The position numbers were made by a program, and so were the translations under genes. Positions 18,139 to 49,672 of a DNA stretch of 64,000 bases are shown here, piece by piece (position 1 is the first letter of the stretch; each line of letters starts with the position of its first letter). Where the stretch lies: the NCBI GenBank assembly GCA_017535125.1, contig JAFXUS010000032.1:53417-117416 (forward strand), read 5' to 3'. The notes under the pieces were generated by a model. It searched no databases, had not been told where the DNA came from, and saw only the letters and a list, made by a program, of their open reading frames with translations. Origin of the DNA: Bacteroidales bacterium. GTDB taxonomy: Bacteria > Bacteroidota > Bacteroidia > Bacteroidales > UBA932.

Positions 18139-18154
18139 AATGATCCAGGATTTT

Positions 18155-23217: not shown

Positions 23218-24297
23218 CTACGCCTGGGTGCCGCGCATCCAGGCCGTTACCGTGGTCCCCATGTTCTGCTTGAAGGTGGCGCTGAAGGTGCTGTAGCTGT
23301 GGAATCCGCTCTCGAAGGCGAGCTGCTGGGCGGTGAAGGTGCGCTGGTCGGCCACGGCCTCATGGTACAGGCGGACGAAATGACGGATGCGCAGGCCGTT
23401 GATGTAGGCGTTGTACGTGATGCCCTGCTGGGCGAAGTGCTGGCTCAGGTAGTAGCGGTTTGTGCCGATGACCTGGGCGAGATGGGCCAGGGTGAGGTCG
23501 TGCTGCAGGTAGAGCTGCCTGTCCTCGCAATGCTTTTTCAGGAGAGAGCCGATGTTGGCGCGGACGGACGCCTTCTGCTCATCGACGGCCGGTTCCGCCG
23601 GCGTGGCGGGCTCGCTCAGCTGCTGCAGCGTTTCCACGCGCCACAGGAGCAGTGCTGCGATGATGATACAGTCTATTTGAAGAAGATACACCAGGACGCC
23701 GCTCCCTTCGCTTGTGCTGCTGTACATGACGAAATACAACAGGAACAAGGCCAGTATCAGAAAGCTCTGCATAACTTCCTTATGCTCCAGATCGGCGTAG
23801 TTGTCCCTGAGCCAGCGCCCGTAACGCCGGACGGCAAAGAACATGAACAACATCAGCAGCGCATATAGGGCATAGATATAAATGCTCGCCGGAACGAAAA
23901 GCGCATCGTCTCCCCGGATGGCACTCAGGGTCGATAATATAAAGGCGGGGATCAGCAAAACCAACACGGGCCAGACAGTCCGATGCCGGTCCTGCAGCAT
24001 GGACAGCAGGACGCCTGTCATCGAGGGGATCAGCATCAGCAGATCCAGGAGGCAGACGATGGTATAGACGGTAAGCGAAGGATGGTTGGCGTAGTACAAC
24101 CAGAACGTGTGGCTCGACGCACAAGCGAGCAGGAAGGCTGCCGCCCACCGGCGCAGACGGACTGGAGACGTCACCTCCGGTGCGATGGCATTGCTGCGCC
24201 GCAGCAGCAAATAAAGCGCCGCCACGACGTCCAGCATAATCACGCCACCATAAAGGAGGACAAATAAGGCGTCATGAAGTATCTCCAGCTCTTCCAT
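23218..24297 (-). CDS. Membrane-anchored AraC family regulator (7TM-HTH type)
   Basis: 359 residues. About residues 1-220 hold seven hydrophobic helices (for example VLLYGGVIMLDVVAALYLLL, VWPVLVLLIPAFILSTL, SFLILALFLLYFVMY). About residues 250-359 are an AraC HTH_18 domain: LTLAHLAQVIGTNRYYLSQH, TYNAYINGLRIRHFVRLY, then LAFESGFHSYSTFSATFKQN. This arrangement is common in Bacteroidales and suggests a membrane-embedded sensor acting directly on DNA. It is 2 bp after the DUF3108 gene, so they share a promoter. It ends 18 bp before the direct repeats upstream of the MscS gene, which are its likely target. Confidence 0.88.
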   Translation of the reverse strand: MEELEILHDALFVLLYGGVIMLDVVAALYLLLRRSNAIAPEVTSPVRLRRWAAAFLLACASSHTFWLYYANHPSLTVYTIVCLLDLLMLIPSMTGVLLSMLQDRHRTVWPVLVLLIPAFILSTLSAIRGDDALFVPASIYIYALYALLMLFMFFAVRRYGRWLRDNYADLEHKEVMQSFLILALFLLYFVMYSSTSEGSGVLVYLLQIDCIIIAALLLWRVETLQQLSEPATPAEPAVDEQKASVRANIGSLLKKHCEDRQLYLQHDLTLAHLAQVIGTNRYYLSQHFAQQGITYNAYINGLRIRHFVRLYHEAVADQRTFTAQQLAFESGFHSYSTFSATFKQNMGTTVTAWMRGTQA

Positions 24298-25089: not shown

Positions 25090-25152
25090 CGCAAATTGCG
25101 TGTAGTATTTCGCAAAACCCGCACCAACTATGCGCCCCTTTTCTTATATTTG
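25090..25152 (+). promoter_or_regulatory. Regulon operator A and promoter (nagB operon)
   Basis: CGCAAATTG at 25090 and CGCAAA at 25111 form a direct repeat with 21 bp spacing. The -7 box TATATTTG is at 25145-25152, exactly 34 bp after the second repeat start. There is no evident -33 box, which fits activator dependence. The same arrangement recurs upstream of the ROK and SusC genes. The transcript should start shortly before the ATG at 25179. Confidence 0.75.
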
Positions 25153-25178
25153 CATCGGACGCTGTCAGATAACCAATT

Positions 25179-27104
25179 ATGAGCAAACAGTTTACCTTAC
25201 CTTACGAAGGCGGCCTGATCGAGAAGGACCTCCCCGCCGGCATTCTCCATAACTATGAAAAAATCTGGACCGAGGTCTATCCGGAGCCCGTTCCGGCCTC
25301 CTCTGCGGTGGCGGATCTCATCGTCGCGGCCATCAACGGCTGCGCGGGGCGCCTGTTCCGTCTGGGCCTGACGACCGGCGCCACGCCGGCACCGCTCTAC
25401 GAGGAGCTGCTGCGCCGCTACCAGGCCGGGCAGGTCTCGTTCCGCAACGTGGAAGTCGTCTCCATCGACGAATACTACCCGTCCTCCTCGGACGCCATGC
25501 AGAGCCGCAACCACCGGCTGCACGACGCGCTGCTGGACAAGGTGGACATCCTCCCGGAAAACATCCACATCCCGGAAGGCACGGTGCCCCAGTCGGAAGT
25601 GTCCGACTACTGCTCGAAATTCGACAAGCTCGCCCGCGAGCTGGACCTGCTCGTGATCGGTATCGGCGAAGAGGGGCAGGTGGGCTTCAACGAAGCCGGC
25701 AGCAATGAGAAGACGCGCACACGTACCGTGCGCCTGTCCTACAGCTCCCGCAAGCGCCAGGCGCGCAATTTCGGCAACGACCTCTCTTCCACGCCGCAGA
25801 GCGCCATCACCATGGGCATCGGCACGATGCTCACGGCGAAGCGCATTGTCCTGATGGCCTGGGGCGAGGACAAGGCGAACGCCGTCAAGGCCATCGTCGA
25901 GGGCGACGTGACCACGGCCTGCCCGGCCTCGCTGCTGCAGCGCCACGACCATATCAATTTCTACGTGGACGCGACGGCGGGCAGCTTGCTGACCCGCGTG
26001 GTCGCTCCCTGGCTGGTGGGCCCCTGCGACTGGACGCCCAAGCTGGTCCGCAAGGCGGTCGTGTGGCTCTGCGAGACCGTCGGCAAGCCGATCCTCAAAC
26101 TGACGGACAAGGACTACCTGGAAAACTCCCTCGGCGAGCTGCTGGAGCAGTCCGGTCCCTTCGACCAGATCAACATCCGGGTCTTCAACGACCTGCAGCA
26201 TACCATTACCGGCTGGCCGGGCGGCAAGCCGAACGCGGACGACAGCACGCGCCCCGTGCCCGCCGCGCCGTATCCCAAGACGATACTGATCTTCTCGCCG
26301 CACCCGGACGACGACGTCATCTCGATGGGCGGCACCTTCATCCGCCTGGTCTCGCAGGGGCACGACGTGCATGTGGCCTACGAGACGTCCGGCGATGTGG
26401 CAGTCCACGACGACGTGGTGCTGCAGCACTTCGACGCCGCGTACCAGCTGGGGCTGGCCGACCGCTTCGCGGAAGTGAAGGCGCTCGTGGACAGCAAGGT
26501 GCCGGGCGAGCCGGAGTCGCGCAAGCTGCTGGACCTCAAGGCGGCCATCCGCCGCAGCGAGGCGCGTGCGGCAGTGCGTTCCTTCGGCCTGGACGACAGC
26601 ACCAACGCGCATTTCCTGAACCTCCCGTTCTACGAGTCCGGCGGCATCAAGAAAATGCCGCGCACGCAGGCCGACGTGGACATCATCAAGGACCTGATCA
26701 AGCGCCTGAAGCCGCACATGATCTTCATGGCGGGCGACCTGGCCGACCCGCACGGCACGCACCGCGTGTGCACCGAGGCGGCGCTGGAGGCCGTGGAGCA
26801 GCTGCGCGCCGAGGGCAACGAATGGCTCTCCGGGACGCACATCTGGCTCTACCGCGGCGCCTGGATGGAGTGGGAGCTGGGCCGCGTGGACATGGCCGTG
26901 CCGCTCAGCCCGGACGAAGTGGTGATGAAACGCCACGCCATCTTCCGCCACCTCTCGCAGAAGGACATCGTCCCGTTCCCGGGCGAGGATCCGCGCGAAT
27001 TCTGGCAGCGCGCCGAAGAGCGTACGCAGAACACCGCCCGGCAGTACGACCGCCTGGGCATGGCCGAGTACCAGGCCATCGAAGTATTCCTGAAACTCTG
27101 TTAA
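25179..27104 (+). CDS. NagB-like domain fused to LmbE/PIG-L deacetylase
   Basis: This 641-residue cytosolic protein is similar in layout to the B. thetaiotaomicron putative glucosamine-6-phosphate deaminase-like protein of about 660 aa. Residues 1-270 have the NagB fold: LTTGATPAPLYEEL, SIDEYY, FNEAGS. Two catalytic positions differ from NagB: the family stretch GNDGHIAFNE here reads GEEGQVGFNE, so the Asp is Glu165 and the ring-opening His is Gln167. About residues 365-600 are a PIG-L/LmbE de-N-acetylase with the zinc motif SPHPDDD (His375, Asp377-379) and HGTH (His525, His528). The deacetylase half seems intact while the deaminase half may be inactive or regulatory. It is cotranscribed with a canonical nagB 4 bp downstream. 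Confidence 0.9.
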   Translation: MSKQFTLPYEGGLIEKDLPAGILHNYEKIWTEVYPEPVPASSAVADLIVAAINGCAGRLFRLGLTTGATPAPLYEELLRRYQAGQVSFRNVEVVSIDEYYPSSSDAMQSRNHRLHDALLDKVDILPENIHIPEGTVPQSEVSDYCSKFDKLARELDLLVIGIGEEGQVGFNEAGSNEKTRTRTVRLSYSSRKRQARNFGNDLSSTPQSAITMGIGTMLTAKRIVLMAWGEDKANAVKAIVEGDVTTACPASLLQRHDHINFYVDATAGSLLTRVVAPWLVGPCDWTPKLVRKAVVWLCETVGKPILKLTDKDYLENSLGELLEQSGPFDQINIRVFNDLQHTITGWPGGKPNADDSTRPVPAAPYPKTILIFSPHPDDDVISMGGTFIRLVSQGHDVHVAYETSGDVAVHDDVVLQHFDAAYQLGLADRFAEVKALVDSKVPGEPESRKLLDLKAAIRRSEARAAVRSFGLDDSTNAHFLNLPFYESGGIKKMPRTQADVDIIKDLIKRLKPHMIFMAGDLADPHGTHRVCTEAALEAVEQLRAEGNEWLSGTHIWLYRGAWMEWELGRVDMAVPLSPDEVVMKRHAIFRHLSQKDIVPFPGEDPREFWQRAEERTQNTARQYDRLGMAEYQAIEVFLKLC

Positions 27105-27108
27105 TAAT

Positions 27109-27906
27109 ATGAAACTAATCATCCGCAACAACGCCGCAAAAGGCTCCCTGTGGGCCGCGCGCCGCATCGCCGACGCCATCAACGCCAAGGCGGCCCGCAC
27201 CTCCGAGCCCTTCGTGCTCGGTCTCTGCACCGGTTCCACCCCCATCGGAACCTACAACGAACTCATCCGCATGGTCCGTGACGGCGAGGTCAGCTTCAAG
27301 AACGTGATCTCGTTCAACATGGACGAGTACGTAGGCCTGCCGGTCGAGCACCCCGAGAGCTATCACTCCTTCATGCACCGCCAGCTCTTCGACCACATCG
27401 ACGAGCCCGCGGAGAACATCCACATCCTGAACGGCAACGCGCCCGACCTCGACGCCGAGTGCGCCGCGTATGAGGAGGCCATCGCCGCCGCAGGCGGATT
27501 CGACCTCTTCCTCGGCGGCGTGGGTGAAGACGGCCACATCGCCTTCAACGAGCCCTTCTCCCCGCTGTGCTCCCGCACGCGGGTGATGACGCTGACCCAG
27601 GACACGCGCGAAGTCAACGCCCGCTTCTTCGGCGGCGACCCGGAGGCCGTGCCCGCCCAGGCGCTCACCGTCGGCGTAGCCACGGTGCTGTCCGCCCGCG
27701 AGGTGGTCATCCTGGCCTTCGGCCCCCGCAAGGCCCGCGCCCTGCGCGACGCCGTCGAGGGTCCGATGTCGCATTACTGCACGCTCAGTGGCATGCAAAA
27801 CCACGCCGACGGCATCATCGTCTGTGACGAATCCGCCGTCGGTGAGCTGAAAGTCTCGAGCTACCGCTACTTCAAAGCGGTGGAAGCTGCGGAGAACAAA
27901 CTATAG
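27109..27906 (+). CDS. nagB: Glucosamine-6-phosphate deaminase
   Basis: 265 residues, the usual length of NagB. It converts glucosamine-6-phosphate to fructose-6-phosphate and ammonia in the cytosol. Motifs are complete: LGLCTGSTPIGTYNEL (phosphate loop), FNMDEYVGL (Asp), GVGEDGHIAFNEP (catalytic Asp, His and Glu) and SRTRVMTLTQDT. It lies 4 bp after the fused NagB-like/LmbE gene and is driven by the same operator and promoter. Its last codons overlap, tail to tail, with the stop of the phosphatase gene on the other strand through the shared palindrome CTATAG. Confidence 0.95.
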   Translation: MKLIIRNNAAKGSLWAARRIADAINAKAARTSEPFVLGLCTGSTPIGTYNELIRMVRDGEVSFKNVISFNMDEYVGLPVEHPESYHSFMHRQLFDHIDEPAENIHILNGNAPDLDAECAAYEEAIAAAGGFDLFLGGVGEDGHIAFNEPFSPLCSRTRVMTLTQDTREVNARFFGGDPEAVPAQALTVGVATVLSAREVVILAFGPRKARALRDAVEGPMSHYCTLSGMQNHADGIIVCDESAVGELKVSSYRYFKAVEAAENKL

Positions 27907-29820
27907 GTTCGAGAAACTGATCTTGTAGAGCTTGGACGTGGTGTCGTCGCCCACCCAGATGCACTGGTGGTCGCGGTCCACGTACAAGCTTTCTCCGTTA
28001 TCGATGAAGGGCACCGGGTAGGAGGCGATCACCTTGCCTTCCAGGGTGCAGAGGTTGATCGTGCGGAGCTCGCTGTCCGGGATCCAGAGCGCGTTGCGCA
28101 CCGGATCGTAGCAGAGGTCGGAAATGTCGTCAATCCCTTCCGTGATCTCCGTGCGGCCGATGATGCCCTCGGTCGGCGAGAAGCGGATCAGCAGGCGCGG
28201 CTTCGCCTGGTTGCCGAGCATCAGGGTGCCGTCGCCCATCCAGGTGATGGCCTCGAGGCCGCTGTTGGTGCGGTACCCCACTTCCTTGATCACGCCGAGC
28301 AGTTCGGATTCGTTGTATTCCGGGGCGCGCAGCCGCCGGACTTCCTGCTTGCGCTCCACGATGTAATAGACGTCCCCGGTGGCCGGGTCCATCGTGACGC
28401 CCTCGCAGTCGAGGTGCCCCTCCACATGGAACGGCGTCGTCTCGCCCGTCCAGCTGACGGCATAGACGCCATTCTCGTCGGAAGCGGCCAGGAAGCCGTT
28501 TCCGTCGGGCGCCAGGCAGAGGCCGGACACCTCCGGGACCTGCGTGTCGATGGTGGTGTATTCACCCATCACCGGCAGGCTGGCCTGCTGCTTGAACGCG
28601 TCCCAGTCGTAGTAGGGCCAGTTGTCGGTCTCCAGCGGCAGGGTGGCTTCCTTGCCGTTGAGGAGCACCTTGAAGAGCACCTTCGGCGAACGCTTGCTGC
28701 GGTAGAAGACGAAATGCAGGTTGGCGCCCATGGGCACCTGGTGCAGCTGGCACCAGACCGGGATCTCGTCCGGGTCGGTGACGTCCTTGCCGAAGCCGTT
28801 CACGTCGAGGGTCATCAGCAGCGGCAGGAAGGTGTAGTCGTGGCCGAAGCGCAGGTCGGCGCCCTGGCGGCCCGAAGCGATGCGCGCGTCCGCCTTGGCG
28901 ATGATGTCGTCCACGATGGGCTGGTAGCCCAGGTGGGTGGGCCAGGCGTTGGCGTAGAACTGGAAGTCATCGATCTTCCAGAGGGCGATGCGCTCCTCGG
29001 GCGTGAAGATGTCCGTGAAGTCCAGGTCCGTGTCCAGGCTGTCCATGCCGGCGGCGAAGAAGTAGAGGTAGGACACGAGGTCCCAGCCTTCCTTCTCGGG
29101 AACGGCGGCCGCGGGGTTCTTGAAGAGCCGCGCGAGGATGGCGCGCCAGTCCACCGTGCGCTCGATGTACTGCTCCCAGGTCTCGCTGAAGCTGAGCGGC
29201 GTGCGGAGATAGTTGTCGTTCCGGAACGGATTGTTTCGGTCGAGCGGCAGGATGGCCGGCAGGAAGCTGACGCCGAAGTTCTCGAAGATGTCCAGCTTCG
29301 GATCCTGCGCCTTCAGGCCCAGGCAGAAAGAGGACATCGTCATGATGCAGCGGGTCGAGGTGGAGGTCCAGGAGCGGACCTCGGCGTCGTTCTTGAACAC
29401 CTGCGGGAAATTGGCGTACATCCGCGCGGCGAGCTCCTGCTGTTGCTGCCAGCCCTTGCGGGAAAGGTCGCCCACGCGATAGCGCACGGACGGATACAGG
29501 CTGTCGAAGCGCTGCTTGAACGACGCGCCGAGCGGCGTGAGGTTGTCCGCCCCGGCGGCGGCCCCGAATACGTCGTTCAGGCGCTCGTACATGTCGCTCT
29601 GCCAGGCGTAGCGGGCGCCGTGGCGGCCGTAGTGGCTGATGTAGAACGGCTTGTAGCCCTTCGGGGCGGGCGAGAGCGCGACCGGGCCGGTCGGGCAGAG
29701 GTAATCGGTGCCGGAAAGATATTCCGGATGCTGCCGGAGCTGGTCGATGACGTCCGGCTGCTGGGCCGTGGCGCAAAGGGAGGCTGCAAGGATGGCCAAC
29801 ACGAAAAGAGTTTTTCTCAT
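27901..29820 (-). CDS. Secreted histidine acid phosphatase fused to a phytase-like/SdiA-regulated propeller
   Basis: 639 residues from the ATG at 29820, beginning with the signal peptide MRKTLFVLAILAASLCATAQ. About residues 40-430 are a branch-2 histidine phosphatase with RHGARY (His67 nucleophile) and the distal FGHDYTFLPL (HD proton donor). About residues 435-639 repeat short beta-propeller blades (SGLCLAPDGNGFLAASDENG, DCEGVTMDPATGDVYYIVER, GLEAITWMGDGTLMLGNQ), matching the esterase-like-of-phytase or SdiA-regulated type. It should remove phosphate from phosphorylated sugars or inositol phosphates in the periplasm. Its start overlaps the stop of the regulator by 4 bp (ATGA). It is the last gene of the GH20 operon. 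Confidence 0.87.
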   Translation of the reverse strand: MRKTLFVLAILAASLCATAQQPDVIDQLRQHPEYLSGTDYLCPTGPVALSPAPKGYKPFYISHYGRHGARYAWQSDMYERLNDVFGAAAGADNLTPLGASFKQRFDSLYPSVRYRVGDLSRKGWQQQQELAARMYANFPQVFKNDAEVRSWTSTSTRCIMTMSSFCLGLKAQDPKLDIFENFGVSFLPAILPLDRNNPFRNDNYLRTPLSFSETWEQYIERTVDWRAILARLFKNPAAAVPEKEGWDLVSYLYFFAAGMDSLDTDLDFTDIFTPEERIALWKIDDFQFYANAWPTHLGYQPIVDDIIAKADARIASGRQGADLRFGHDYTFLPLLMTLDVNGFGKDVTDPDEIPVWCQLHQVPMGANLHFVFYRSKRSPKVLFKVLLNGKEATLPLETDNWPYYDWDAFKQQASLPVMGEYTTIDTQVPEVSGLCLAPDGNGFLAASDENGVYAVSWTGETTPFHVEGHLDCEGVTMDPATGDVYYIVERKQEVRRLRAPEYNESELLGVIKEVGYRTNSGLEAITWMGDGTLMLGNQAKPRLLIRFSPTEGIIGRTEITEGIDDISDLCYDPVRNALWIPDSELRTINLCTLEGKVIASYPVPFIDNGESLYVDRDHQCIWVGDDTTSKLYKISFSNL

Positions 29821-30989
29821 AAAGCGGTTTTTTTCTGTTGGTGCTGCTCCCGCCATTCATTGGGCGAGCAGCCGTAGATTTGTTTGAAGCGGCGCGAGAT
29901 GCTCTTGGTGTCGTTCTCCCCGAGGGAGAGGGCGATGCCCACCACCTGGTCGTCCGTGTCCAGGAGCAGCTCGGCGAAGCGCTTGATCTTGAGGTCTGAG
30001 ATATATTGATATAAGGTCTGTCCGGTCACGGTCTTGAAGCGGCGCTCCAGCAGGCGGCGGGACAGGGCGACTTCCGCGATCACGTCCTTGACGGAAATCT
30101 TCTTCTGGTAGTTGCGGTGGATGAACTGCACGGCCTTCTGGATCTGGGCGTCGTCGGTCGCGAAGGCGGCCGTGGAGATGCGCCCGACGATCTTGACGGG
30201 TTTCAGGACGATGTCGCGGGGCGGCAGGTCGGGGTTGGCGACCCGCTCCTCGATGAGCTCGGCCGTCCGGTAGCCGCCTTCTTCGATGTCCACGAAAATG
30301 CTGGACAGGGTGGTGCTCCCGAGACTGCAGAGCAGCTCGTCGTTGTCCACGCCGATCACGGACACCTCGTCCGGAATCCGCACTCCGGCCGCGTGGCAGG
30401 CCTCGATGAGGTTGTTGCCCTGGTTGTCGTCGCAGGCCATGATGCCGATGGGCTTGGGGATCATGCGCAGCCACTCGCGGAGCCGGTCGCGCTCGTAGTA
30501 CCACAGGTGGTCGATGTCCTGCAGGTTGTAGGCATAGAACGTGCTCCCGAACCCGGCCGCCTCCACCTCGCGGCGGAAGCCCTCGCAGCGCTCGTCGGAC
30601 CAGCAGACCTGGTTGAAGCCGAAGAAGCCGAAGTTGCGGAAGCCGTGGTCGATGTAGAAGCGGGCGGCCATGCGGCCGGTCCCGAGGTAGTCGGCGGTGA
30701 TGTTGGGAATGGTCTTGAACCGCTTCTTGAAGTCCTGGGCCACGACGACGATGCCGTTCTTGCCGAACAGGCTGACGTCGTCCGTCTTCTCGAACTGCCC
30801 GATCACCGCGTCCGCGCCCCAGTCCCGGGCCCACTTCACGACGCCGGGGATGCCGATCTCGGCCTTGAAGGACGGCGGCATGCGGCAGATGGCCCACTGC
30901 TCCTTGCGCCGCGAGTAGCGGACGATGCCCTGGAGCAGTTTATTGGGGAAGGACTCCGTGAAGTCCGTGATGAACAACAGGCGCAGCAT
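29817..30989 (-). CDS. XylR-like transcriptional regulator (periplasmic-binding-fold + AraC HTH)
   Basis: 390 residues. About residues 1-275 have a LacI/PBP-like sugar-binding fold (LLFITDFTESFPNKLLQGIV, DAVIGQF, GIMACDDNQGNNLIEACHAA, VSVIGVDND). About residues 285-385 are an AraC HTH: ISVKDVIAEVALSRRLLERR, LYQYISDLKIKRFAELLLDT, and SISRRFKQIYGCSPNEWR. This layout is that of E. coli XylR, a cytosolic sugar-binding activator that binds direct repeats. It lies inside the amino-sugar locus, between GH20 and the phosphatase, and is the best candidate to bind the three CGCAAA direct repeats. The ligand is probably an amino sugar or oligosaccharide (inference). Confidence 0.9.
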   Translation of the reverse strand: MLRLLFITDFTESFPNKLLQGIVRYSRRKEQWAICRMPPSFKAEIGIPGVVKWARDWGADAVIGQFEKTDDVSLFGKNGIVVVAQDFKKRFKTIPNITADYLGTGRMAARFYIDHGFRNFGFFGFNQVCWSDERCEGFRREVEAAGFGSTFYAYNLQDIDHLWYYERDRLREWLRMIPKPIGIMACDDNQGNNLIEACHAAGVRIPDEVSVIGVDNDELLCSLGSTTLSSIFVDIEEGGYRTAELIEERVANPDLPPRDIVLKPVKIVGRISTAAFATDDAQIQKAVQFIHRNYQKKISVKDVIAEVALSRRLLERRFKTVTGQTLYQYISDLKIKRFAELLLDTDDQVVGIALSLGENDTKSISRRFKQIYGCSPNEWREQHQQKKTAL

Positions 30990-30993
30990 GGGC

Positions 30994-33063
30994 TCAATGA
31001 CGGTGATAGCTGATCCCGAGGCTGTCGTAGTACGGATACTCGTGATCCGTGATGATGCTGAAGAAGCGGTCGAAGTCCTCCAGGAAGGCCGGAGCGTCCG
31101 GGGCGGTGGTGCCGGCCCAGGCGGGCGTGGCGTTCCAGCCGCGCTCGAAGAGGCCCAGCGCCTTCGGGAAGAAGTAGTAGGTCACGTGGTCGAAGCACCG
31201 GAGCGTCTCCGCCCAGAGGTGGCCTTCGATGCCGATGATGTTGGCCTTGGCCTCGGGCGCGAGCGCCGGCTTGCCTTCGCCGGAGTGCGTCAGGTCCACG
31301 GGCTTGCCGTAGTCGTCCCAGCGGACGGAACGGTACATGTCGTACGGCTGCACGGAGAAGCTGCGGCGCTCGTCCACGAAGCCGCCCCAGGAGTGCCCGC
31401 GCTCGGTCTTGCCGTAATTGTAGGCGAAGTCCATGTAGCAGTTGGGCGCGCTGGAGATGACGACGGGGATGCCCTCGTTGGCGAATTCGTACGGGAGCAC
31501 GTCGCGGCCGTGCGAGACGGTCCAGAGGTTGGTGAGCGCGAGCTGCTTCTTCAGGCGCTCGAGCGTGGCGGGCTCGAGGTTCTGGCAGACGTCCTGCCAG
31601 CCGCCGAGTTTGATGCCGCGGGCTTCCGCGATGTCGAGCACCCGGTTCAGGAAGTAATCCTTGAGCCAGCCGATATCGGTCTTTCCGTTGGCTTCCATGA
31701 GGGCGCGGCAGGCCGGGGATCCGGTCCAGGCGCCGTCAGGCACCTCGTCGCCGCCGACGTGGATGGCGTCGAGGGGCGCGCCCGCTTCCGCGTAGAGTGC
31801 GGCCAGGCCGTCGAAGACGGTCTCGAAGAAGGTATAGGTCGAGGGCAGCGCGACGTTCATCACGTTGTCCGTGTAGTCCTGGACGGATTCATATTCGGAG
31901 ACGTCCTCCGGCTCGGAGAGCAGGCAGCTGCGGTCGCCGGTGCGCTGGGCGCGCACCTCCATGGACTTGACCGCCGCGCGGGAATGGCCCGGCGTATCGA
32001 ATTCCGGGATCACGTGGATATGGCGCGCGGTGGCGTAGCGCAGGATTTCGACGAAGTCGGCGTGGGAATAGTAGCCGTTGCCGGGGGAGTCGTCGCCCGG
32101 TCGGGCCGCGACGCAGTAGGTCGGCTGCAGGCCGTCCGGCTCCGTGATGCTGCCGTCCTCCTGCAGGACCGGGAGGCAGCGGAAGGCGCCGTAGGAGGTG
32201 AGCTCCGGCAGCGCGTCGATCTCGATGCGCCAGCCCTCGTCATCGCCGAAGTGCAGGTGCAGCAGGTTGCCCTTGTAGTCCGCGATCATGTCGATCAGGC
32301 GCAGCAGGTCATCCTTCTTCGTAAAATTCCGGCTCACGTCCAGCATCAGGCCGCGCCAGGGCAGGTCCGGCCAGTCCGTGATCTCGGCTGCCGGGATGGG
32401 GGCGCCCTGCGCGTTGCGCCGGATCCGGTTGAGGGTGACGGAAGCGTAGTAGGCGGCGTCTTCGTCGGCCGCCTCGATGCGGACGTCGCCGTCCTTGAGG
32501 GTGATGCGGTACCAGCCCGGCGCCTGGCCGTCCACGTAGCTGACGGTCGGTTCCGCGGCGGGCAGCGTTTCGCCGTCCAGCGGCTTCACTTCCTTCAGGC
32601 GGGGAATGATGTCATAGACGCCCGTGGCGACGTGGTTATAGCTGAAGACCGGGACGGGCTCGGCGGGCAGGAAACGGTATTCCGCCTTCACGGCGACGGG
32701 CTTTCCACCCTTGCGCTGCAGGAAGAATCCTTCCGGCGCGCGGCACTGGTTGACCAGCGGCCGGGCCTCGTAGCGAAGGATCATGGCGCCGTCGTGCTCG
32801 CCGGGCACCACGCGGTACAGCGTGCCGCTGATGTGGTCGATGCTGCCCGGCGCACCTTCCTCCATGGTGACGGGGGTGCGGAACTGGCTGAACCAGACGG
32901 TCCAGTCGGTGCCGGCGGGCGGGTTCTGGATTTCCATCGTATGGAGGGCTTTGCCGTTTTCGGGGTTGGTCTCGCCTTCCGTCCAGATGATGTGACAAGG
33001 TTGGGTGCACGCTACGCAAATTGCGCATGCGGCAGAGAGAAGAAGAAAAAGTTTAGTGCTCAC
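30994..33063 (-). CDS. GH20 beta-N-acetylhexosaminidase lipoprotein
   Basis: 689 residues with a lipoprotein signal (MSTKLFLLLSAACAICVAC). About residues 110-230 form the GH20b-like domain. The barrel follows with WRGLMLDVSRNF, LLHLHFGDDEGWRIEI, IPEFDTPGHSRAA and the catalytic pair in HVGGDEVPDG (Asp439-Glu440). Later come WQDVCQNL and GIEGHLWAETL. It releases terminal GlcNAc or GalNAc by substrate-assisted catalysis at the cell surface or in the periplasm. It is the first gene of the operon GH20-regulator-phosphatase. A weak -7 box (CATATTTG) lies on the minus strand at 33088-33095, and regulon operator B lies about 30-60 bp further upstream. Confidence 0.93.
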   Translation of the reverse strand: MSTKLFLLLSAACAICVACTQPCHIIWTEGETNPENGKALHTMEIQNPPAGTDWTVWFSQFRTPVTMEEGAPGSIDHISGTLYRVVPGEHDGAMILRYEARPLVNQCRAPEGFFLQRKGGKPVAVKAEYRFLPAEPVPVFSYNHVATGVYDIIPRLKEVKPLDGETLPAAEPTVSYVDGQAPGWYRITLKDGDVRIEAADEDAAYYASVTLNRIRRNAQGAPIPAAEITDWPDLPWRGLMLDVSRNFTKKDDLLRLIDMIADYKGNLLHLHFGDDEGWRIEIDALPELTSYGAFRCLPVLQEDGSITEPDGLQPTYCVAARPGDDSPGNGYYSHADFVEILRYATARHIHVIPEFDTPGHSRAAVKSMEVRAQRTGDRSCLLSEPEDVSEYESVQDYTDNVMNVALPSTYTFFETVFDGLAALYAEAGAPLDAIHVGGDEVPDGAWTGSPACRALMEANGKTDIGWLKDYFLNRVLDIAEARGIKLGGWQDVCQNLEPATLERLKKQLALTNLWTVSHGRDVLPYEFANEGIPVVISSAPNCYMDFAYNYGKTERGHSWGGFVDERRSFSVQPYDMYRSVRWDDYGKPVDLTHSGEGKPALAPEAKANIIGIEGHLWAETLRCFDHVTYYFFPKALGLFERGWNATPAWAGTTAPDAPAFLEDFDRFFSIITDHEYPYYDSLGISYHRH

Positions 33064-33126
33064 AATCAGCGGATTTTAAAGTCGATACAAATATGAAAAA
33101 AAATGTGGACCCGAAAAATATAATGA

Positions 33127-33189
33127 CGCAAATTGTGTATCTAAATACGCAAATTTGTTTTTGTGCTTTCGATTGAATCCATATTTTTG
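33127..33189 (+). promoter_or_regulatory. Regulon operator B and promoter (ROK-GH2-phosphatase operon)
   Basis: CGCAAATTG at 33127 and CGCAAA at 33148 form a direct repeat with 21 bp spacing. TTTG at 33160-33163 is a plausible -33 box, and the -7 box TATTTTTG is at 33182-33189. The second repeat starts exactly 34 bp before the -7 box, as at sites A and C. The site lies between divergent operons, so it could also influence the GH20 promoter. Confidence 0.78.
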
Positions 33190-33207
33190 CAAAAAAATCA
33201 CACAAAA

Positions 33208-34035
33208 ATGACACTTGGAATTGATGTCGGAGGGACCAATCTGGTCCTGGGTCTGGTTCAGGACGGGAAAATCGTGAAACGGGTTTCCGCTCCCTGGTTC
33301 CCCAAAGAAGCAAGTCTGCAGGAGACGCTGGATACGCTTTCTGAGCGTATCGAGGGAATAATTACGCCGGATACGGAAAAGATCGGAATCGGTGTCCCTT
33401 CCGTGGTGGACGTGAAACGCGGCATCGTGTACGACACCGTCAACATTCCGTCTTGGACGGAAGTCCCCCTCAAGGAAATCCTGGAGAAACGCTTCAACCT
33501 GCCCGTCGCCGTCAACAACGACGCGAACTGCTACGCGATGGGCGTGTACGAAGGCTATCCGGCCGACGCGAAGCCGGAGGTGCTCGTCGTGATCACGCTC
33601 GGCACGGGCGTGGGCATGGGCATCGTGGACCGCGGCCGTCTCTTCGTCGGCGCCAACTGCGGCGCGGGCGAGCTGGGCAGCCTGCCGTACCGCGGCGCCA
33701 CGCTCGAGGCGTTCTGCAGCAAGCAGTTCTTCGCCGGCACCGGCTGGGACAGCCTCACTGCCTCCCAGGCCGCGCGCAACGGCGATCCGCGCGCGCAGAT
33801 CCTCTTCACAGACCTGGGCAAGCGCCTGGGCGACCTGCTCTGCACGGTCATGTTCGCCTATGATCCCAGCCACATCGCCTTCGGCGGTGGCGTAGCCTAT
33901 AATTACCCGCTCTTCCGGCAGTCCATGGAGGCGCGCCTGAAGCGGGATTTTCCGTATCGTAAAAGCCTGGAAAGGCTGACCATCGACGTTTGCACCGGCG
34001 ACGACATCCCGGTGATCGGCGCATCCCTTATCTAG
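33208..34035 (+). CDS. ROK family sugar kinase
   Basis: 275 residues from the ATG at 33208, which gives MTLGIDVGGTNLVLGLVQDG, the ASKHA phosphate-1 motif. A longer upstream reading crosses the promoter and is rejected. AVNNDANCYAMG holds the catalytic Asp, and VVITLGTGVGMGIV the second phosphate motif. GCGxxGCxE-type zinc residues are not obvious: the segment reads CGAGELGSLPYRG with later FCSKQF. ROK proteins of this size are kinases for glucose, GlcNAc, mannose or GlcN. In this operon glucosamine or N-acetylglucosamine is the likely substrate (inference). The GH2 gene starts 2 bp after its stop. Confidence 0.9.
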   Translation: MTLGIDVGGTNLVLGLVQDGKIVKRVSAPWFPKEASLQETLDTLSERIEGIITPDTEKIGIGVPSVVDVKRGIVYDTVNIPSWTEVPLKEILEKRFNLPVAVNNDANCYAMGVYEGYPADAKPEVLVVITLGTGVGMGIVDRGRLFVGANCGAGELGSLPYRGATLEAFCSKQFFAGTGWDSLTASQAARNGDPRAQILFTDLGKRLGDLLCTVMFAYDPSHIAFGGGVAYNYPLFRQSMEARLKRDFPYRKSLERLTIDVCTGDDIPVIGASLI

Positions 34036-34037
34036 CC

Positions 34038-36551
34038 ATGCGTATGAAAAAGTTTATCTACCTCTTCATCATGATGACGCTCTGCGCCTGCGGGCAGCAG
34101 GCCCCCATGGCCTCCGGCGACCGGCTGGTGCTGGACGGAGGCTGGAAGCTCTCCCGTGACGGCAGAGCTGAACAATATGCCGCCGAGGTTCCCTCGACCG
34201 TGGCCGGCGTGCTGGCGGAAGCCGGTTATTTCGGGGACGCCCTGTTCGAGGGCCGCAACTATGCGGACGTGGACAAGGCCCCGTTCGACGACGCCTGGAC
34301 CTACCGGACCACCTTTGCGGCGAAGCCCGCTGAGGGCCAGTTCTGCGAGCTGGTATTCGACGGCCTGAACTACTATGCCGACATCTTTTTGAACGGGACG
34401 CAGCTCGCGTCCTCCGACACGACCTTCGGCGTCTTCTGCCGCCGCGCGTATGAGGTCGGCTCGCTGCTGAAGGGCCGCAACAGCCTGGAAGTCAAGCTGC
34501 GCCGCGCCCAGTCGGGCGACCTCAACATCGGTTTCGTGGACTGGAACCCCCGTCCGTTCGACGAGAGCATGGGCATCGTCCGCCCGGTGACGGTCCACAT
34601 GACGGGCGCCGTGTCCGTCGAGGACGTGTTCGTCGTGCCCCATCTTGACGTGGAGACGCTGGCGAAGGCCGACCTGGAGCTGCGTGTCAAGCTGCGCAAC
34701 CATTCCGACGAAGCCGTCGAAGGCAGCCTGGCGCTGGCGCTGGACGGCGTGGGCGAGGCTTCCGTGCCCGTCAGCCTGCCCGCCGGCGCGCTGCAGACCG
34801 TGGTGCTGACCCCCGAGCAGGTGGTCATGCTGCACCTCGAGAACCCGCGCGTGTGGTGGAGCTACGACCTCGGCACGCCGGAACTGTACAGCCTGGAGGC
34901 CTGCGTGCTGCTGGACGGCGCCGTTTCCGACCGGAAGTCGGTCGATTTCGGCGTCCGCTCGATCACCAGCCGCCTGACCCCGGAAAACTACCGCCAGTAC
35001 ACCCTGAACGGCAAGGACGTCCTCATCAAGGGCGCCGGCTGGACCGACGACCTCTTCCTGCGCGACACGCCGGAGAGCATCCGGCAGCAGGTCGAGTACG
35101 TCATGGACATGAACCTGAACTGCATCCGTTTCGAGAATATCTGGGGCAAGGACGACACCGTCTATGACCTCTGCGACCGCCTCGGCGTGCTGGCCCTCGT
35201 GGGCTTCAGCTGCCAGTGGGAGTGGGAGGACTACTGCGGCCTGCCGGAAGTGGGCCATTTCGGTTGCATCAACGGCCAGGAGGTCGAAGACCTCGCCGTC
35301 GCGTATTTCCGCGACCAGGTGGTGCGCCTGCACAACCATGCGTCGGTCATCGGCTGGCTCACGGGCAGCGACCGCATCCCGAATCCGGGCCTGGAGAAGC
35401 GCTATCTCGAGATCTTCGAGCAGGAAGACTACCGCTCCTACGTGTGCTCGGCGAAGAATATGGAGAGCCTGGCCGGCTGGTCCGGCTCCAAGATGGAGGG
35501 ACCCTATGAGTACGTCGCTCCGGACTACTGGTACCGCAATACCGACGCGGGCGGCGCCTTCGGTTTCAACACCGAGACCGGCATCGGCGCCAACCTGCCG
35601 CAGGCCGAGTCCCTGCGCCGCATGATCCCGGAGGATGCCCTCTGGCCGCTGTCCGACAGCTGGAACTACCATTGCACGGCGTCGAGTTCCGCGATGAACT
35701 CGCCGGCGATGCTCAACACCATCATCGAGAACCAGTACGGCGCCGCGAGCGGTTTCGAGGACTTCGTCCGCAAGGCGCACGCCGTGGACTACGACGGCAC
35801 CCGCGCCATGTTCGAGTCCTTCCGCGCCCGCATGCCGAAATCGACCGGTATCGTGCAGTGGATGCTGAACTCCGCCTGGCCGTCCCTCTACTGGCAGCTC
35901 TACGACTGGTACGGCGCCCCGACGGCCGGCTACTACGGCACCAAGAAGGCTTGCGAGCCCGTGCAGCTCATCTTCGACTACGCCGACCGCAAGGTTTACG
36001 CGGTCAGCGAGCGGCCGGAAGCCTGCACCCTCAAGGCCACGGTCCTGATTTACGACGCACAGTCCCGCCTGCTGGGCGGCGACAGCCGCGAAATCACCCT
36101 GGGCTACCGCCAGAGCCTGCCGGTCTTCGACCTGCGCCGCTACGACGGCAAGCCGCACTTCGTGGCGCTCGCCCTTGCGCAGCCCGACGGCACGCCCGTC
36201 GCGGACAACTTCTACTGCCTGCCCGCGAAGGACAGCGACTACGACTGGACCAGGACGAACTGGTATCTCACCCCGATCACCCGCCACGCCGACCTGCGCT
36301 TCGCTTTCGCACAGGAGCCCGCCGAGGTGGAGATGAGCGTGGAGGAGAAGGACGGCGAATACGCCGTGTCGCTCGCCAACAAGTCCCAGGTCATCTCCTA
36401 CATGAATATCGTGAAGGCGCTCGACGCCGACGGCCAGCTGGTGGCCCCGGCCTTCTGGAGCGACAACTTCTTCCCGCTCCTGCCGGGCCAGACGAAGACC
36501 GTCACCTGCAGGACGGATGCCAAGGACATCAATTTCAAACTCGATAAATAG
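34038..36551 (+). CDS. GH2 glycosidase of exo-beta-D-glucosaminidase type (lipoprotein)
   Basis: 837 residues. The ATG at 34038 gives MRMKKFIYLFIMMTLCACGQ, a lipoprotein signal. The domain order is GH2 jelly roll (about 30-200), Ig-like (about 205-310), barrel (about 310-610) and C-terminal Ig-like domains. The acid/base position reads LTGSDRIPNP (Asp445), not the usual N-E pair, and the nucleophile block is GFNTETGIGANLPQ (Glu513). GSD and SFNSET-type blocks, with GPYDYVPPAYWY-like sequence between them (here EGPYEYVAPDYWYR), are the marks of exo-beta-D-glucosaminidases such as CsxA. It should release GlcN from chitosan-like oligosaccharides. Beta-mannosidase activity is a less likely alternative. 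It is cotranscribed with the ROK kinase. Confidence 0.87.
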   Translation: MRMKKFIYLFIMMTLCACGQQAPMASGDRLVLDGGWKLSRDGRAEQYAAEVPSTVAGVLAEAGYFGDALFEGRNYADVDKAPFDDAWTYRTTFAAKPAEGQFCELVFDGLNYYADIFLNGTQLASSDTTFGVFCRRAYEVGSLLKGRNSLEVKLRRAQSGDLNIGFVDWNPRPFDESMGIVRPVTVHMTGAVSVEDVFVVPHLDVETLAKADLELRVKLRNHSDEAVEGSLALALDGVGEASVPVSLPAGALQTVVLTPEQVVMLHLENPRVWWSYDLGTPELYSLEACVLLDGAVSDRKSVDFGVRSITSRLTPENYRQYTLNGKDVLIKGAGWTDDLFLRDTPESIRQQVEYVMDMNLNCIRFENIWGKDDTVYDLCDRLGVLALVGFSCQWEWEDYCGLPEVGHFGCINGQEVEDLAVAYFRDQVVRLHNHASVIGWLTGSDRIPNPGLEKRYLEIFEQEDYRSYVCSAKNMESLAGWSGSKMEGPYEYVAPDYWYRNTDAGGAFGFNTETGIGANLPQAESLRRMIPEDALWPLSDSWNYHCTASSSAMNSPAMLNTIIENQYGAASGFEDFVRKAHAVDYDGTRAMFESFRARMPKSTGIVQWMLNSAWPSLYWQLYDWYGAPTAGYYGTKKACEPVQLIFDYADRKVYAVSERPEACTLKATVLIYDAQSRLLGGDSREITLGYRQSLPVFDLRRYDGKPHFVALALAQPDGTPVADNFYCLPAKDSDYDWTRTNWYLTPITRHADLRFAFAQEPAEVEMSVEEKDGEYAVSLANKSQVISYMNIVKALDADGQLVAPAFWSDNFFPLLPGQTKTVTCRTDAKDINFKLDK

Positions 36552-36552
36552 C

Positions 36553-37719
36553 ATGAAAAAACTCATACTTATGATCCTGGCCCTGGGCTGCGCCGCCGGC
36601 GCATTCGCCCAGACGGAAGAACAGGACATTTCCCGCAATCGTTCGAAATATGCGAACGACCAGTTCCGCGAGGACGATCAGTACACGGTGACCGACCCGT
36701 ACGAGACCGTGTCCGTGAGCCAGCCGAAGAGCAGGAAGATCAAGAACATCATCTTCATGATCGGCGACGGCATGGGACTGGAACAAGTCAGCTGCGGCTG
36801 GGTGCTGAATGGAGGAAAACTTAACCTGGACAATTTCCCGTACACGGGATTCTCCCGCACCTACGCCGTCGACCGCTTGGTCACGGACTCCTGCGCCGGC
36901 GGCTCCGCCCTGGCGACGGGCGTCAAGACCAAGTACTATTATATGGGCGTGGATCCGGATGGCAATCCGGTCCCGAGCGTGCTGCACCGGGCCCAGGAAA
37001 AGGGCATGAAGACCGGCGTGGCCGTGACCTGCCGCATCAACGATGCGACGCCGCTCGATTTCGTGGGCCACTCGCTGGACCGCGATGAGGAGGAAATCAA
37101 CGCCGCCCAGTACGTGGACTGCGGCGTTGACTTCCTGACCGGCGGCGGCTTGCAGTTCTGGCAGAACCGCGAGGACGGCCGCGACCTCGTCGAGGAAATG
37201 AAGGCCAAGGGCTACACCTACGTGGACAACCGCGAGGATCTGAACAAGGTCCAGAGCGGCCGCGTGCTCGGCCTCTTCGCCCCGCTCGAGATGGAACCCT
37301 CGCTCGACCGCGGTCCCGTACTCGAGGACTGCGCCATGAAAGCCATCGAGTTGCTGGACAACAAGAAGGGCTTCTTCCTGATGATCGAAGGCTCGAGCAT
37401 CGACGACTGGGGTCACCGCCAGAAGGTCGGCTACATGGCTGAAGAGCTGTTCGACTTCGACCGCACCATCGGCAAGGTGCTCCAGTGGGCCGAGAAAGAC
37501 GGTCACACCCTGGTCATTGTGACGGCCGACCACGCCACCGGCGGCCTGACCCTGATCGACGGAAATCTACAGGAGCGCAGCGTAAAAGTGCACTTCTCCA
37601 CCAAGGGCCACAACGGCATCCTCGTTCCGGTGTACGCTTACGGTCCGCACGCTGAGGAGTTTGAGGGCGTGCACGAGAACAATGAAATCGGCGAAATCAT
37701 CCGCCGGCTGATGAAATAA
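36553..37719 (+). CDS. Alkaline phosphatase, periplasmic
   Basis: 388 residues from the ATG at 36553, with signal peptide MKKLILMILALGCAAGAFAQ. It is a PhoA-type phosphomonoesterase: IIFMIGDGMGLEQV (zinc/magnesium Asp), LVTDSCAGGSALATG with Ser113 as nucleophile, EGSSIDDWGH (Glu, Asp, His), TADHATGG (Asp, His) and a late His in TKGHNGILVPVYAYG. The nucleophile loop has Cys-Ala-Gly-Gly after Ser in place of the common Ala-Ala-Ser-Ala. It is 1 bp after the GH2 stop, so in the same operon. With the histidine phosphatase on the other arm it suggests the glycan carries phosphate (inference). Confidence 0.92.
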   Translation: MKKLILMILALGCAAGAFAQTEEQDISRNRSKYANDQFREDDQYTVTDPYETVSVSQPKSRKIKNIIFMIGDGMGLEQVSCGWVLNGGKLNLDNFPYTGFSRTYAVDRLVTDSCAGGSALATGVKTKYYYMGVDPDGNPVPSVLHRAQEKGMKTGVAVTCRINDATPLDFVGHSLDRDEEEINAAQYVDCGVDFLTGGGLQFWQNREDGRDLVEEMKAKGYTYVDNREDLNKVQSGRVLGLFAPLEMEPSLDRGPVLEDCAMKAIELLDNKKGFFLMIEGSSIDDWGHRQKVGYMAEELFDFDRTIGKVLQWAEKDGHTLVIVTADHATGGLTLIDGNLQERSVKVHFSTKGHNGILVPVYAYGPHAEEFEGVHENNEIGEIIRRLMK

Positions 37720-37726
37720 GGCCGTG

Positions 37727-37789
37727 CGCAAATTGTGCATAGGAATACGCAAAAATTACTCCACCGAGGAATCGAATTGAATATTTTTG
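37727..37789 (+). promoter_or_regulatory. Regulon operator C and promoter (susCD operon)
   Basis: CGCAAATTG at 37727 and CGCAAA at 37748 form a direct repeat with 21 bp spacing. The -7 box TATTTTTG is at 37782-37789, 34 bp after the second repeat start, exactly as at sites A and B. There is no clear -33 box. A leader of about 45 nt precedes the SusC start at 37841. Confidence 0.78.
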
Positions 37790-37840: not shown

Positions 37841-40800
37841 ATGAAAGACAAAAAACTCTTCCTGTTCCTCCTGGCCGGGTTCGTCGCGTTGAGCGTCAAC
37901 GCCCAGAACCTGACGGTCAAGGGAACGATCACCGACGGTGCCAGCGGAGAACCTGTTCCGTTCGCCTCCGTCGTTGTCAAGGGCACGGGCGCCTGGACCG
38001 CATCCGACGCTGAAGGCCGCTATTCGGTTGAGTCTCCCGCCAACGGAATTCTTTCCGTCGAGAGCCTCGGTTACCTCTCCGTTGAGGTGCCCGTGGACGG
38101 CAAGAGCAACCTGAACATTACCCTGTATCCTGATCTGGACCAGCTCTCCGAGGCAGTCGTCATCGGTTACGGTGTCCAGCAGAAGAAACTCCTCACCGGA
38201 TCCACGGTCCAGGTGAAGGGTGGTGACCTGACTAAACTCAGTACGACTTCCGTTCTGGGTGCTCTCCAGAGCCAGAGCCCGGGTGTGACCATCACGCAGG
38301 CTTCCGGCCAGCCCGGCGAGGGCTACAAGGTGAACATCCGCGGTATGGGTACCATCGGCGATTCCGATCCGCTCTACGTCATCGACGGTGTGGCGGGCGG
38401 CAGCCTCAGCGCCCTCAACCCGGCTGACATCGAGTCCATCGACGTTCTGAAGGATGCCGCTTCGGCCGCCATCTACGGTGCGCGTGCCGCCAACGGCGTC
38501 GTCCTCGTGACCACGAAGCAGGGCAAGGAAGGCCGCGCCGTCGTGTCCTATGACGGCTACTACGGCTGGCAGTTCATCGCCAAGATGCCGAACCTCTGCA
38601 ACGCGCAGGAGTACATCGCCGCCCAGGACCTGATGAACAAGAACGAAGGTGTCGCTGCGACCAACTGGGCCGCCGTCCTTCCTGCCAAGCTCTATCAGGC
38701 TATCCAGAACGGCACCTGGAAGGGTACCAACTGGATGGAGGAAGCGTACAACAAGGGCGCCATGACCACCAACCACGCCATCAACGTGACCGGCGGCACG
38801 GCCGACCACAAGTACGCCATCGGTCTGTCCTACACCGCGCAGGACGGTATCATCGGTTACAACAAGATCGATCCGGTCAATGCCAAGTTCCAGCGCTACA
38901 CCTTCCGCGTCAACACCGACAACGTGGTGATCAAGAACGACAAGCTCGACATCCTGCGCATCGGCCAGACGCTGAACTTCAACCACAGCACCAACAGCGG
39001 TATTGCTGACGACGTGGACATCTACTGGAACTCCGTGCACAACATCCTCCGCACGATGCCTATCCTTCCGGCTTACACCACGGATGAGAACGGCAACATC
39101 GCCTTCTACGATCAGGAGGCCCGCCAGGCAGAAGGCTGGACCTATGATATCTCCACCAGCTCCGCCAACCCGCTCGCATACGACTACTACACGTCCCGCG
39201 GTCTGCAGCAGAGCTCCAGCTACACCCTGCAGGCGAGCATCTTCGCCGAACTCCAGCCGATCAAGAACCTCAAGTTCAAGACCCAGTTCGGTTACCTGAT
39301 GTCCGCCGGTTCCTCCCGCTCCTACAACATGATCTATGCGATCAACGGCAAGGTTTACAATGATTTCGACAACGTGAGCCAGAGCATGAGCACGAACCAG
39401 CGTATCACCTGGGAAAATACGGTGTCCTACTCCTTCTCCATCGCTGACAAGCACAACTTCGACCTCGTGGCCGGTCAGTCCATCGAGAAGTGGGGCATGG
39501 GCGAGCAGATCAGCGGCAAGGGAACGAACTCCATCTTCCCGAACGACTTTGAGCGCGCCTACCTCTCCAACACCAAGCCGACGCAGCTGAGCGAGATTTC
39601 CGTGTCCGGCAAGCCCCGGAGCAAGGGCGCCCTGGCCTCCTTCTTCGGCCGTGTCAACTACAACTATGACAGCAAGTACATGTTCTCCGCCACGGTCCGT
39701 GCGGATGGTTCTTCCAACTTCGCCCGCGGTCACCGCTGGGGTATCTTCCCCTCCGTGTCCGCCGGTTGGGTGATCTCTTCCGAGCCGTGGATGGCGAATT
39801 CCAAGAACTGGCTGAGCTTCCTGAAACTGCGCGCCAGCTGGGGCCAGAACGGTAACGCCAGCATCTCCAACTTCCAGTACCTCTCCACCATCGTGCTGGA
39901 TACGGGCGCTTCCTATGCCTTCGATTCCGAGGATGCCTTCGCGACCGGCGCCGTCGGCGACGTGCTCGCCAACCCGGACGTGAGCTGGGAGACCTCCCAG
40001 CAGCTCGACTTCGGTATCGACGCCCGCTTCTTCAACTCCCGTCTCGGCGTTTCCTTCGACGCTTACATCAAGGACACCCGCGACTGGCTGGTCGATGCTC
40101 CGATCGCTTCCGTGTACGGCCTCAATGCGCCGTTCATCAATGGCGGCGACATCCGCAACTCCGGTATCGAACTCTCCATCGACTGGAGCAAGAACACCGG
40201 TGACTTCACCTACGGCATCAACGTGAACGGAGCTTTCAACAAGAACCTCGTCACCCGTATCGCCAACGCCGAGGGCATCATCCATGGTGCTGACGACATC
40301 CTCTCCGAGGGTACGACCGAAATGTACCGCGCCCAGGTCGGCTATCCGATCGGCTACTTCTATGGCTACAAGACCGCCGGTGTCTTCCAGAACCAGGCCC
40401 AGGTCGACGCCACGCAGGCGAAGCTCGAGGGTGCCAAGCCCGGCGACCTGATCTTCGTCGACACCAACAACGACGGCGTGATCTCCGGTGAGGACCGCAC
40501 CATGATCGGTGACCCGAATCCCCACTTCACCGCCGGCCTGAACTTCTGGATGGCCTGGAAGGGCTTCGACTTCAACCTCTCCGGTTACGGCGCCTTCGGG
40601 CAGCAGGTAGCCAAGTCCTACCGCTCCTTCGCCGACAGCCCGCGTGACAACTTCACCACGGACGTCTTCAATACCTGGACGGGCGAGGGTACTTCCAACC
40701 GCCTCCCGATGCTGACCAACGGCAGCAACCCGAACTGGCAGAACATCTCCGACATCTATATCGAGAACGGCGATTACTTCAAGATCTCCAACCTCACCGT

Positions 40801-43028: not shown

Positions 43029-44473
<1,445 letters not shown>

Positions 44474-44477
<4 letters not shown>

Positions 44478-49620: not shown

Positions 49621-49640
49621 CCTTTTGCGCAAATAATTCT

Positions 49641-49648
49641 TACCTTTG
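49641..49648 (+). promoter_or_regulatory. -7 box for the flippase gene
   Basis: TACCTTTG matches TAnnTTTG, 24 bp before the ATG at 49673. It separates the surface-glycan genes from the suf transcript. Confidence 0.65.
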
Positions 49649-49672
49649 CGCTAAGGACCAGCATTTCCCGGC

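Follow-up and report, generated by a model that had tools for sequence, protein, structure and literature searches.

The window analyzed here, a 64-kb stretch of contig JAFXUS010000032.1 from a Bacteroidales bacterium, contains an amino-sugar locus in which three operons (nagB-like/lmbE-nagB, ROK-GH2-phosphatase and susCD) are preceded by the same direct repeat, CGCAAA-N15-CGCAAA, raising the question of which protein reads these repeats and how it acts on the promoters behind them. Very probably, the three sites are bound as operators by a XylR-type one-component regulator whose gene lies within the locus (29817-30989, minus strand) and which would most likely activate from them; binding, direction of effect and ligand are inferred. 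The sites, their spacing and conservation, and their link to the operons and to one regulator family are seen directly in the sequence and its comparison with relatives.

Direct repeats at a fixed distance from the -7 box

Exact CGCAAA-N15-CGCAAA matches occur in the window at 25090, 33127 and 37727 on the plus strand and at 49650 on the minus strand, compared with a mean of 0.00 pairs per window in 100 dinucleotide shuffles. Predicted operator 1 (CGCAAATTG...CGCAAA, 21-bp period, 25090-25116) precedes the nagB-like/lmbE promoter, whose -7 box is TATATTTG (25145-25152). Operator 2 (33127-33153) lies between the divergent ROK and GH20-regulator operons, upstream of the -7 box TATTTTTG of the ROK-GH2-phosphatase promoter (33182-33189), and operator 3 (37727-37753) precedes susC, with the same box, TATTTTTG, in the susCD promoter (37782-37789). 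All of these elements are on the plus strand, and the TAnnTTTG box begins exactly 34 bp after the start of the second repeat at each of the three sites. A TTTG at the usual -33 place is missing at sites 1 and 3 and is found at site 2 (33160-33163, N18).

As an out-of-sample test, we scanned the window with a position matrix trained on 59 sites of related loci, none of them from the window. The matrix ranked the same three sites first (68.5 bits at 33127, 58.6 at 37727 and 46.3 at 25090); these were followed by a minus-strand match at 33158 that overlaps site 2 (20.3) and then by a score of 5.9, and the maxima in three mononucleotide shuffles of the window ranged from -4.4 to 2.4. These results confirm an earlier note on this DNA, which had described the three sites at 34 bp from a TAnnTTTG box and had stated that two of the three promoters have no -33 box. 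The fourth pair (49624-49650, minus strand) has no -7 box and was treated as background. A lone CGCAAATTG at 33015 lies within the GH20 codons; one of 33 related GH20 genes has this sequence in its first 90 nt, and it was therefore left out of the sites. The first promoter with its surroundings (201 bases) had no match in a plasmid search.

Conservation at related loci and across genomes

Searching public genomes with 25 aligned regulators, we collected 78 loci, many of them ruminant-gut by their records, of which 49 form a close set (regulators 59-96% identical over the best segment). In the close set, exact CGCAAA pairs at 21 bp were found 37 times, in 30 loci, with three or fewer at each other spacing from 7 to 60 bp. 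When one mismatch was allowed, the count at 21 bp rose to 65 pairs in 40 loci, compared with 0-11 at the other spacings from 16 to 27 bp and nine for the reversed half-site. The box stood 34 bp from CGCAAA in 45 cases and 55 bp from it, the distance to the first repeat, in 48, with no more than five cases at any other distance. Sites with a box number 66 at up to two mismatches, with accepted box distances of only 33-35 bp, and come from 41 of the close loci; 59 of them have the box at 34 bp and seven at 35 bp.

The sites follow the starts of operons. Restricting the count to gene starts preceded by 200 bp of DNA and with a protein match that starts within 30 residues, and again allowing up to two mismatches, we found an upstream site for first genes encoding NagB-LmbE (10 of 11; reversed control, 1), ROK (31 of 36; control, 1) and GH2 (3 of 4; control, 0). 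Internal genes had none, be it GH2 (0/39), phosphatase (0/33), regulator (0/34), NagB (0/10) or SusD (0/5), and the internal histidine phosphatase had one in 39, without a box and with a reversed control of 1. ROK genes classed as internal had a site in 4 of 6, where the reversed control scores too; in the internal-ROK loci with a site (L040-L043), the regulator gene is just upstream on the same strand and the site lies between the regulator and ROK genes. For SusC, sites were found before 1 of 14 first genes and 5 of 25 internal genes (reversed controls, 1 and 2). The earlier note had proposed comparing orthologous loci, where absence of the sites would speak against it; they recur at operon starts, and the SusC site is kept in some relatives only (L001, L003, L004 without a box, L006, L007 and L009). 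In reordered operons led by GH2 (L010, L012 and L037) or SusC (L009), the site precedes the new first gene, and in one reordered locus (L034) the expected site was missed.

Genome-wide counts were made in the genomes of relatives. Twelve of these (about 27 Mb) contain 20 exact pairs when no box is required, of which 16 precede regulon operons and four lie elsewhere without a box, and a reversed control pattern occurs four times; the many unrelated promoters that would have counted against the earlier note were not seen in these genomes. A scan for the site plus box at up to two mismatches, covering the genomes of 32 of the 78 loci, returned 66 matches against one for the reversed pattern, with at least one match in 31 of the 32 genomes. 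Among perfect matches, 31 of 32 share a contig with the regulator gene and lie within 7 kb of it, as do 11 of the 13 matches with one mismatch; some of the 21 matches with two mismatches are evidently background. The remaining perfect match belongs to the genome of L012, in which the ROK and phosphatase genes lie outside the regulator locus, with a perfect site and box upstream of them (G007 contig 43, L129:6897). This relocated operon, with its perfect predicted site, is the strongest single test.

It is exceedingly improbable that the sites are functionless, either as random matches or as copies of one duplicated promoter. Many of the loci do come from close relatives, and the three window sites have common letters beyond CGCAAA, but the shuffles gave 0.00, the spacing, reversed and box-distance controls were low, and the sites track the operon start after rearrangement and relocation. 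Moreover, positions 28-48, from the second repeat to the box, nowhere exceed 0.5 bit in the 66 sites, although the length of this segment stays constant.

Wider scans were less specific. At up to one mismatch, 12 of 295 genomes of the order, including G001, had a match (reversed, 0); most of these matches are unlike the extended site and were used as background only. At up to two mismatches, at least 129 of 249 family genomes had one, and since those among the matches listed are mostly unlike the extended site, this result was not used as a count. Five loci (L039:3556, L040:3595, L041:3507, L042:3583 and L043:3595) have a second conserved site about 6.3-6.4 kb from the regulator, with CTCAAA as the second repeat, which in L040 precedes a DUF6057 gene. 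In L142:3541 (minus strand), the half-sites agree over 14 letters, CGCAAAwTGAAGAC, which suggests that this is the true half-site length.

The XylR-type regulator and its proposed action

We examined the link between the sites and the regulator family in a divergent set of 61 regulators, 33-51% identical to the query except for one at 56%, requiring a pair at up to two mismatches with a box at up to one mismatch, 33-35 bp away and within 300 bp of the regulator gene. An adjacent site was found for 16 of the 61, whereas each of the controls (ten other spacings, a reversed half-site, a complemented half-site and seven other box distances) gave 0 or 1. A cruder count without the box in 32 divergent loci gave 11 sites versus one for the reversed pattern, about half of the 11 being away from the regulator.

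Several observations weigh against assigning the sites to this family. The loci were picked through the regulator gene, so that co-presence alone is weak evidence, and a genome with GH2 but without the regulator, as a negative control, was not found among the 249 family genomes (regulator in 45, GH2 in 20, all 20 within the 45). Eight of the 49 close loci have no site with a box at up to two mismatches, and the SusC site is present in just 6 of 39 SusC rows, five with a box, many of the rows being unrelated SusC proteins of about 30-35% identity. An adjacent site of the CGCAAA form is missing for 45 of the 61 divergent regulators, including six Dyadobacter loci, and the -33 box is not always absent, some -33 signal remaining on the activated side. 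Finally, the sites of hybrid two-component systems (HTCS) also average 21 bp between repeats, according to passages of PMC3878776, and 21 bp alone is therefore not diagnostic of the window regulator.

This last point bears on the possibility that the sites are real operators bound by another protein, such as an HTCS or the AraC-type helix-turn-helix (HTH) protein 23218-24297, encoded some 0.9 kb away from operator 1. We consider this quite unlikely, because 16 of the 61 divergent XylR-type genes have a site next to them, against 0-1 in the controls, the operon that moved away has retained its site in a genome that also encodes the regulator, and the 23218-24297 protein had no tblastn match at 1e-15 in the available flanks of the 78 loci, many of these flanks being short. 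The same three results support the earlier note in its choice of the 29817-30989 protein, which is the best-supported candidate binder. The N-terminal part of the 23218-24297 protein appears by eye to be membrane-spanning.

We propose that a dimer of the XylR-type regulator would bind two head-to-tail half-sites (approximately CGCAAAwTGtGTA) 21 bp apart on the same helix face. The promoter-proximal half-site would cover the place of the -33 box, and the protein therefore most likely activates in place of that box. In the geometry on which this reading is based, the -7 box is at 34-35 bp, and a -33 TTTG is present in 7 of 66 promoters on the activated side (control gaps, 1 and 2). Activation of this class II-like type, known from AraC at araBAD, would turn on nagB-lmbE/nagB, ROK-GH2-phosphatase and susCD, with an amino sugar derived from chitin-like glycans as the probable ligand. 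Repression by the same protein, released by an amino sugar as in LacI-family proteins, would suit the LacI type of the sensor domain and the expected overlap of the proximal half-site with RNA polymerase contacts at -33. We regard it as unlikely, since so few of the site-bearing promoters have a -33 TTTG, as expected if an activator is needed, and E. coli XylR is an activator. Vibrio XylRA is likewise an activator in the passages of PMC12125979 that describe it.

Beyond what the earlier note contained, site 2 also faces the regulator's own GH20-regulator operon. A putative -7 box of this divergent operon, CATATTTG (33088-33095, minus strand), lies 31 bp past the other end of operator 2. The divergent GH20-regulator operon is present in 39 loci, 32 of which have a site at up to three mismatches; the seven without one (six from Dyadobacter, and L034) were excluded. 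A YANNTTTG box (mostly CATATTTG or CATCTTTG) stands at 31 bp from the opposite end of the site in 26 of the 32 and at 30-32 bp in 28; when loci with the regulator gene itself as the divergent neighbor are included, a box is found at 29-33 bp in 34 of 41. A -33 TTTG is present in 12 of 34 cases on the regulator side, compared with 7 of 66 on the activated side. Operator 2 thus probably serves two promoters at two fixed distances, which would place both operons under joint control and subject the regulator to autoregulation.

Both CGCAAA and the first recognition helix (LSRR.LE, starting at residue 309) are almost invariant. We compared the second helix (from residue 359) with the motif in 67 of 110 regulators with a site, leaving out L148, a distant regulator in two pieces. 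Motif position 11 is T or C in 41 of 44 regulators with a SISRRF-like second helix and G in 20 of 23 with other helices. We rejected this covariation as proof: the sensor-domain tree has one helix-state change and five motif-state changes, leaving one independent pair, and because the helix state changes only once, the covariation serves as a hypothesis. We tentatively suggest, at somewhat less than even confidence, that a widespread, little-examined Bacteroidales family of XylR-type regulators runs chitin/amino-sugar regulons via tandem CGCAAA-led half-sites 34 bp from the -7 box, replacing the -33 box. In this family, a two-part code would operate, the first HTH reading CGCAAA and the second setting the 3' part of the half-site (GTA/ACC for SISRRF-like helices, AGGA/AAGA for others), and in many members one operator would drive two divergent promoters, including the regulator's own.

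Two further observations concern regulators of the family. The regulators of the six Dyadobacter loci (L059-L062, L068 and L071) are 43-44% identical and have almost the same first helix; they are encoded next to homologues of GH20 and, in most cases, ROK, and no site of the CGCAAA form was found in these loci. L138 contains a pair of XylR-type paralogues (56% and 48%) within a single locus, each at the head of a different portion of the target genes, and no site at up to one mismatch was found there.

Gene content, substrate and comparison with known systems

Pfam and NCBIfam searches bore out the gene assignments that the earlier note had made for the three operons. Operator 1 is followed on the plus strand by a NagB-like/LmbE (PIG-L) fusion gene (25179-27104, NF002557) and by nagB, encoding glucosamine-6-phosphate deaminase (27109-27906, TIGR00502 above cut-off). 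On the minus strand, a GH20 beta-hexosaminidase family gene (30994-33063, PF00728) is directly upstream of the regulator gene, which lies only a few bases behind it, and the two therefore probably form one transcript. The gene behind the regulator, overlapping it by 40 bp, encodes a histidine-phosphatase (branch 2) protein by domain search (27901-29856, minus strand) and is probably on the same transcript. Operator 2 is followed on the plus strand by genes for a ROK-family protein (33208-34035, PF00480), a GH2 protein with an exo-beta-glucosaminidase Ig domain (34041-36551, PF18368) and an alkaline-phosphatase family protein (36547-37719, PF00245). The ROK protein (275 aa) consists of the ROK domain alone, from residue 3, without the N-terminal HTH of NagC/NanR-type ROK repressors, and is probably a sugar kinase, with NCBIfam kinase models matching only below cut-off. 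Operator 3 is followed, again on the plus strand, by genes for a SusC-like TonB-dependent receptor (37841-41011; Plug, CarbopepD_reg_2) and a SusD-like lipoprotein (41018-42817; SusD-like_3, SusD_RagB).

Additional sites point to further predicted targets. In L030, L037 and L057, one precedes a gene for GH18, a chitinase-like family, and in the genome of L073 an off-locus site with two mismatches precedes another GH18 gene (L133). Two genomes (L130 and L131) have a similar promoter, its site being weaker (one and two mismatches), ahead of genes for a major facilitator superfamily (MFS) transporter, similar to the GluP and NagP models but below their cut-offs, and a ROK protein. The GH20, GH2, NagB and GH18 targets together suggest chitin or chito-oligosaccharides as the substrate, and the three operons probably serve the use of amino sugars from chitin.

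Several features stand apart from the regulon. The C-terminal part of the histidine-phosphatase protein is SdiA-regulated/phytase-like and is missing in many relatives; in the comparison of these proteins, which takes in L003 and L011, this part is separate in L011 (16686-17348). A PnuC-like nicotinamide mononucleotide transporter gene (PF04973, 44474-45079) lies between genes that we take, by reading of the sequence only, to be sufB (43029-44477) and sufC (45072-45827). Two neighboring Amidohydro_3 genes occupy 16501-19810 on the minus strand.

The regulator has a LacI-type sensor (PF13377, residues 110-273) and an AraC HTH (PF12833, 305-382; PF00165, 290-330), the build of XylR-type regulators. 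Among solved structures, E. coli XylR (PDB 4fe4, E 9.7e-38) is the best match, over residues 8-383 of 390, in agreement with the XylR-like regulator that the earlier note had placed within the locus. The predicted operators, two direct repeats 21 bp apart by the spacing controls, also fit this type. The predicted targets are amino-sugar genes and not xylose genes, and we therefore call the protein XylR-type by build, not a xylose regulator. E. coli XylR (PDB 4fe4 and 4fe7) has the same LacI-type sensor and C-terminal AraC HTH, and its operators are direct repeats, as cited in a passage of PMC12125979. In contrast to the E. coli system, no xylose genes were found in the scan of window proteins, the two recognition helices are different in the PDB 4fe4 alignment, and the promoters are of the Bacteroidota type with a -7 TAnnTTTG box.

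Among Bacteroides systems, as described in passages of PMC3878776, the HTCS of B. thetaiotaomicron also have an AraC-type DNA-binding domain and direct repeats of about 21 bp before polysaccharide operons. HTCS contain sensor kinase and receiver domains, whereas the domain search of the window regulator found only Peripla_BP_3 and the AraC HTH, with neither a histidine kinase nor a receiver. SusR-like sites are direct repeats 67 or 77 bp apart in the same source, compared with the 21-bp period here. NanR (BT0433), assigned there to the use of sialic acid and N-acetylglucosamine, belongs to the ROK family and not to the LacI-AraC type; the 'XylR' BT0791 of that paper is an unrelated NrtR-family protein, and the passage of its regulator table contains no LacI-AraC fusion. 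We recognized no prior description of the motif or regulator group in the open-access papers searched, subscription papers and RegPrecise lying outside this search. The regulon is well-supported and its kind of regulator is already known, while the regulon itself is undescribed in the open-access literature searched.

The analysis assigns a predicted operator, regulon and likely substrate to a soluble glycan regulator of uncultured Bacteroidales, where the passages of PMC3878776 concern HTCS and SusR systems. The strict 34-bp distance, together with the mostly absent -33 box, amounts to a direct, testable statement on activators at Bacteroidota promoters, and the operator could be usable as an inducible part. 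A further counterpart is XylRA of Vibrio, which has the domain plan of the window regulator and, according to passages of PMC12125979, a two-repeat motif that precedes several operons in a single catabolic locus and was tested in that study by electrophoretic mobility shift assay. XylRA differs in its AT-rich repeats, its xylose effector and its gammaproteobacterial host, as described in the same passages.

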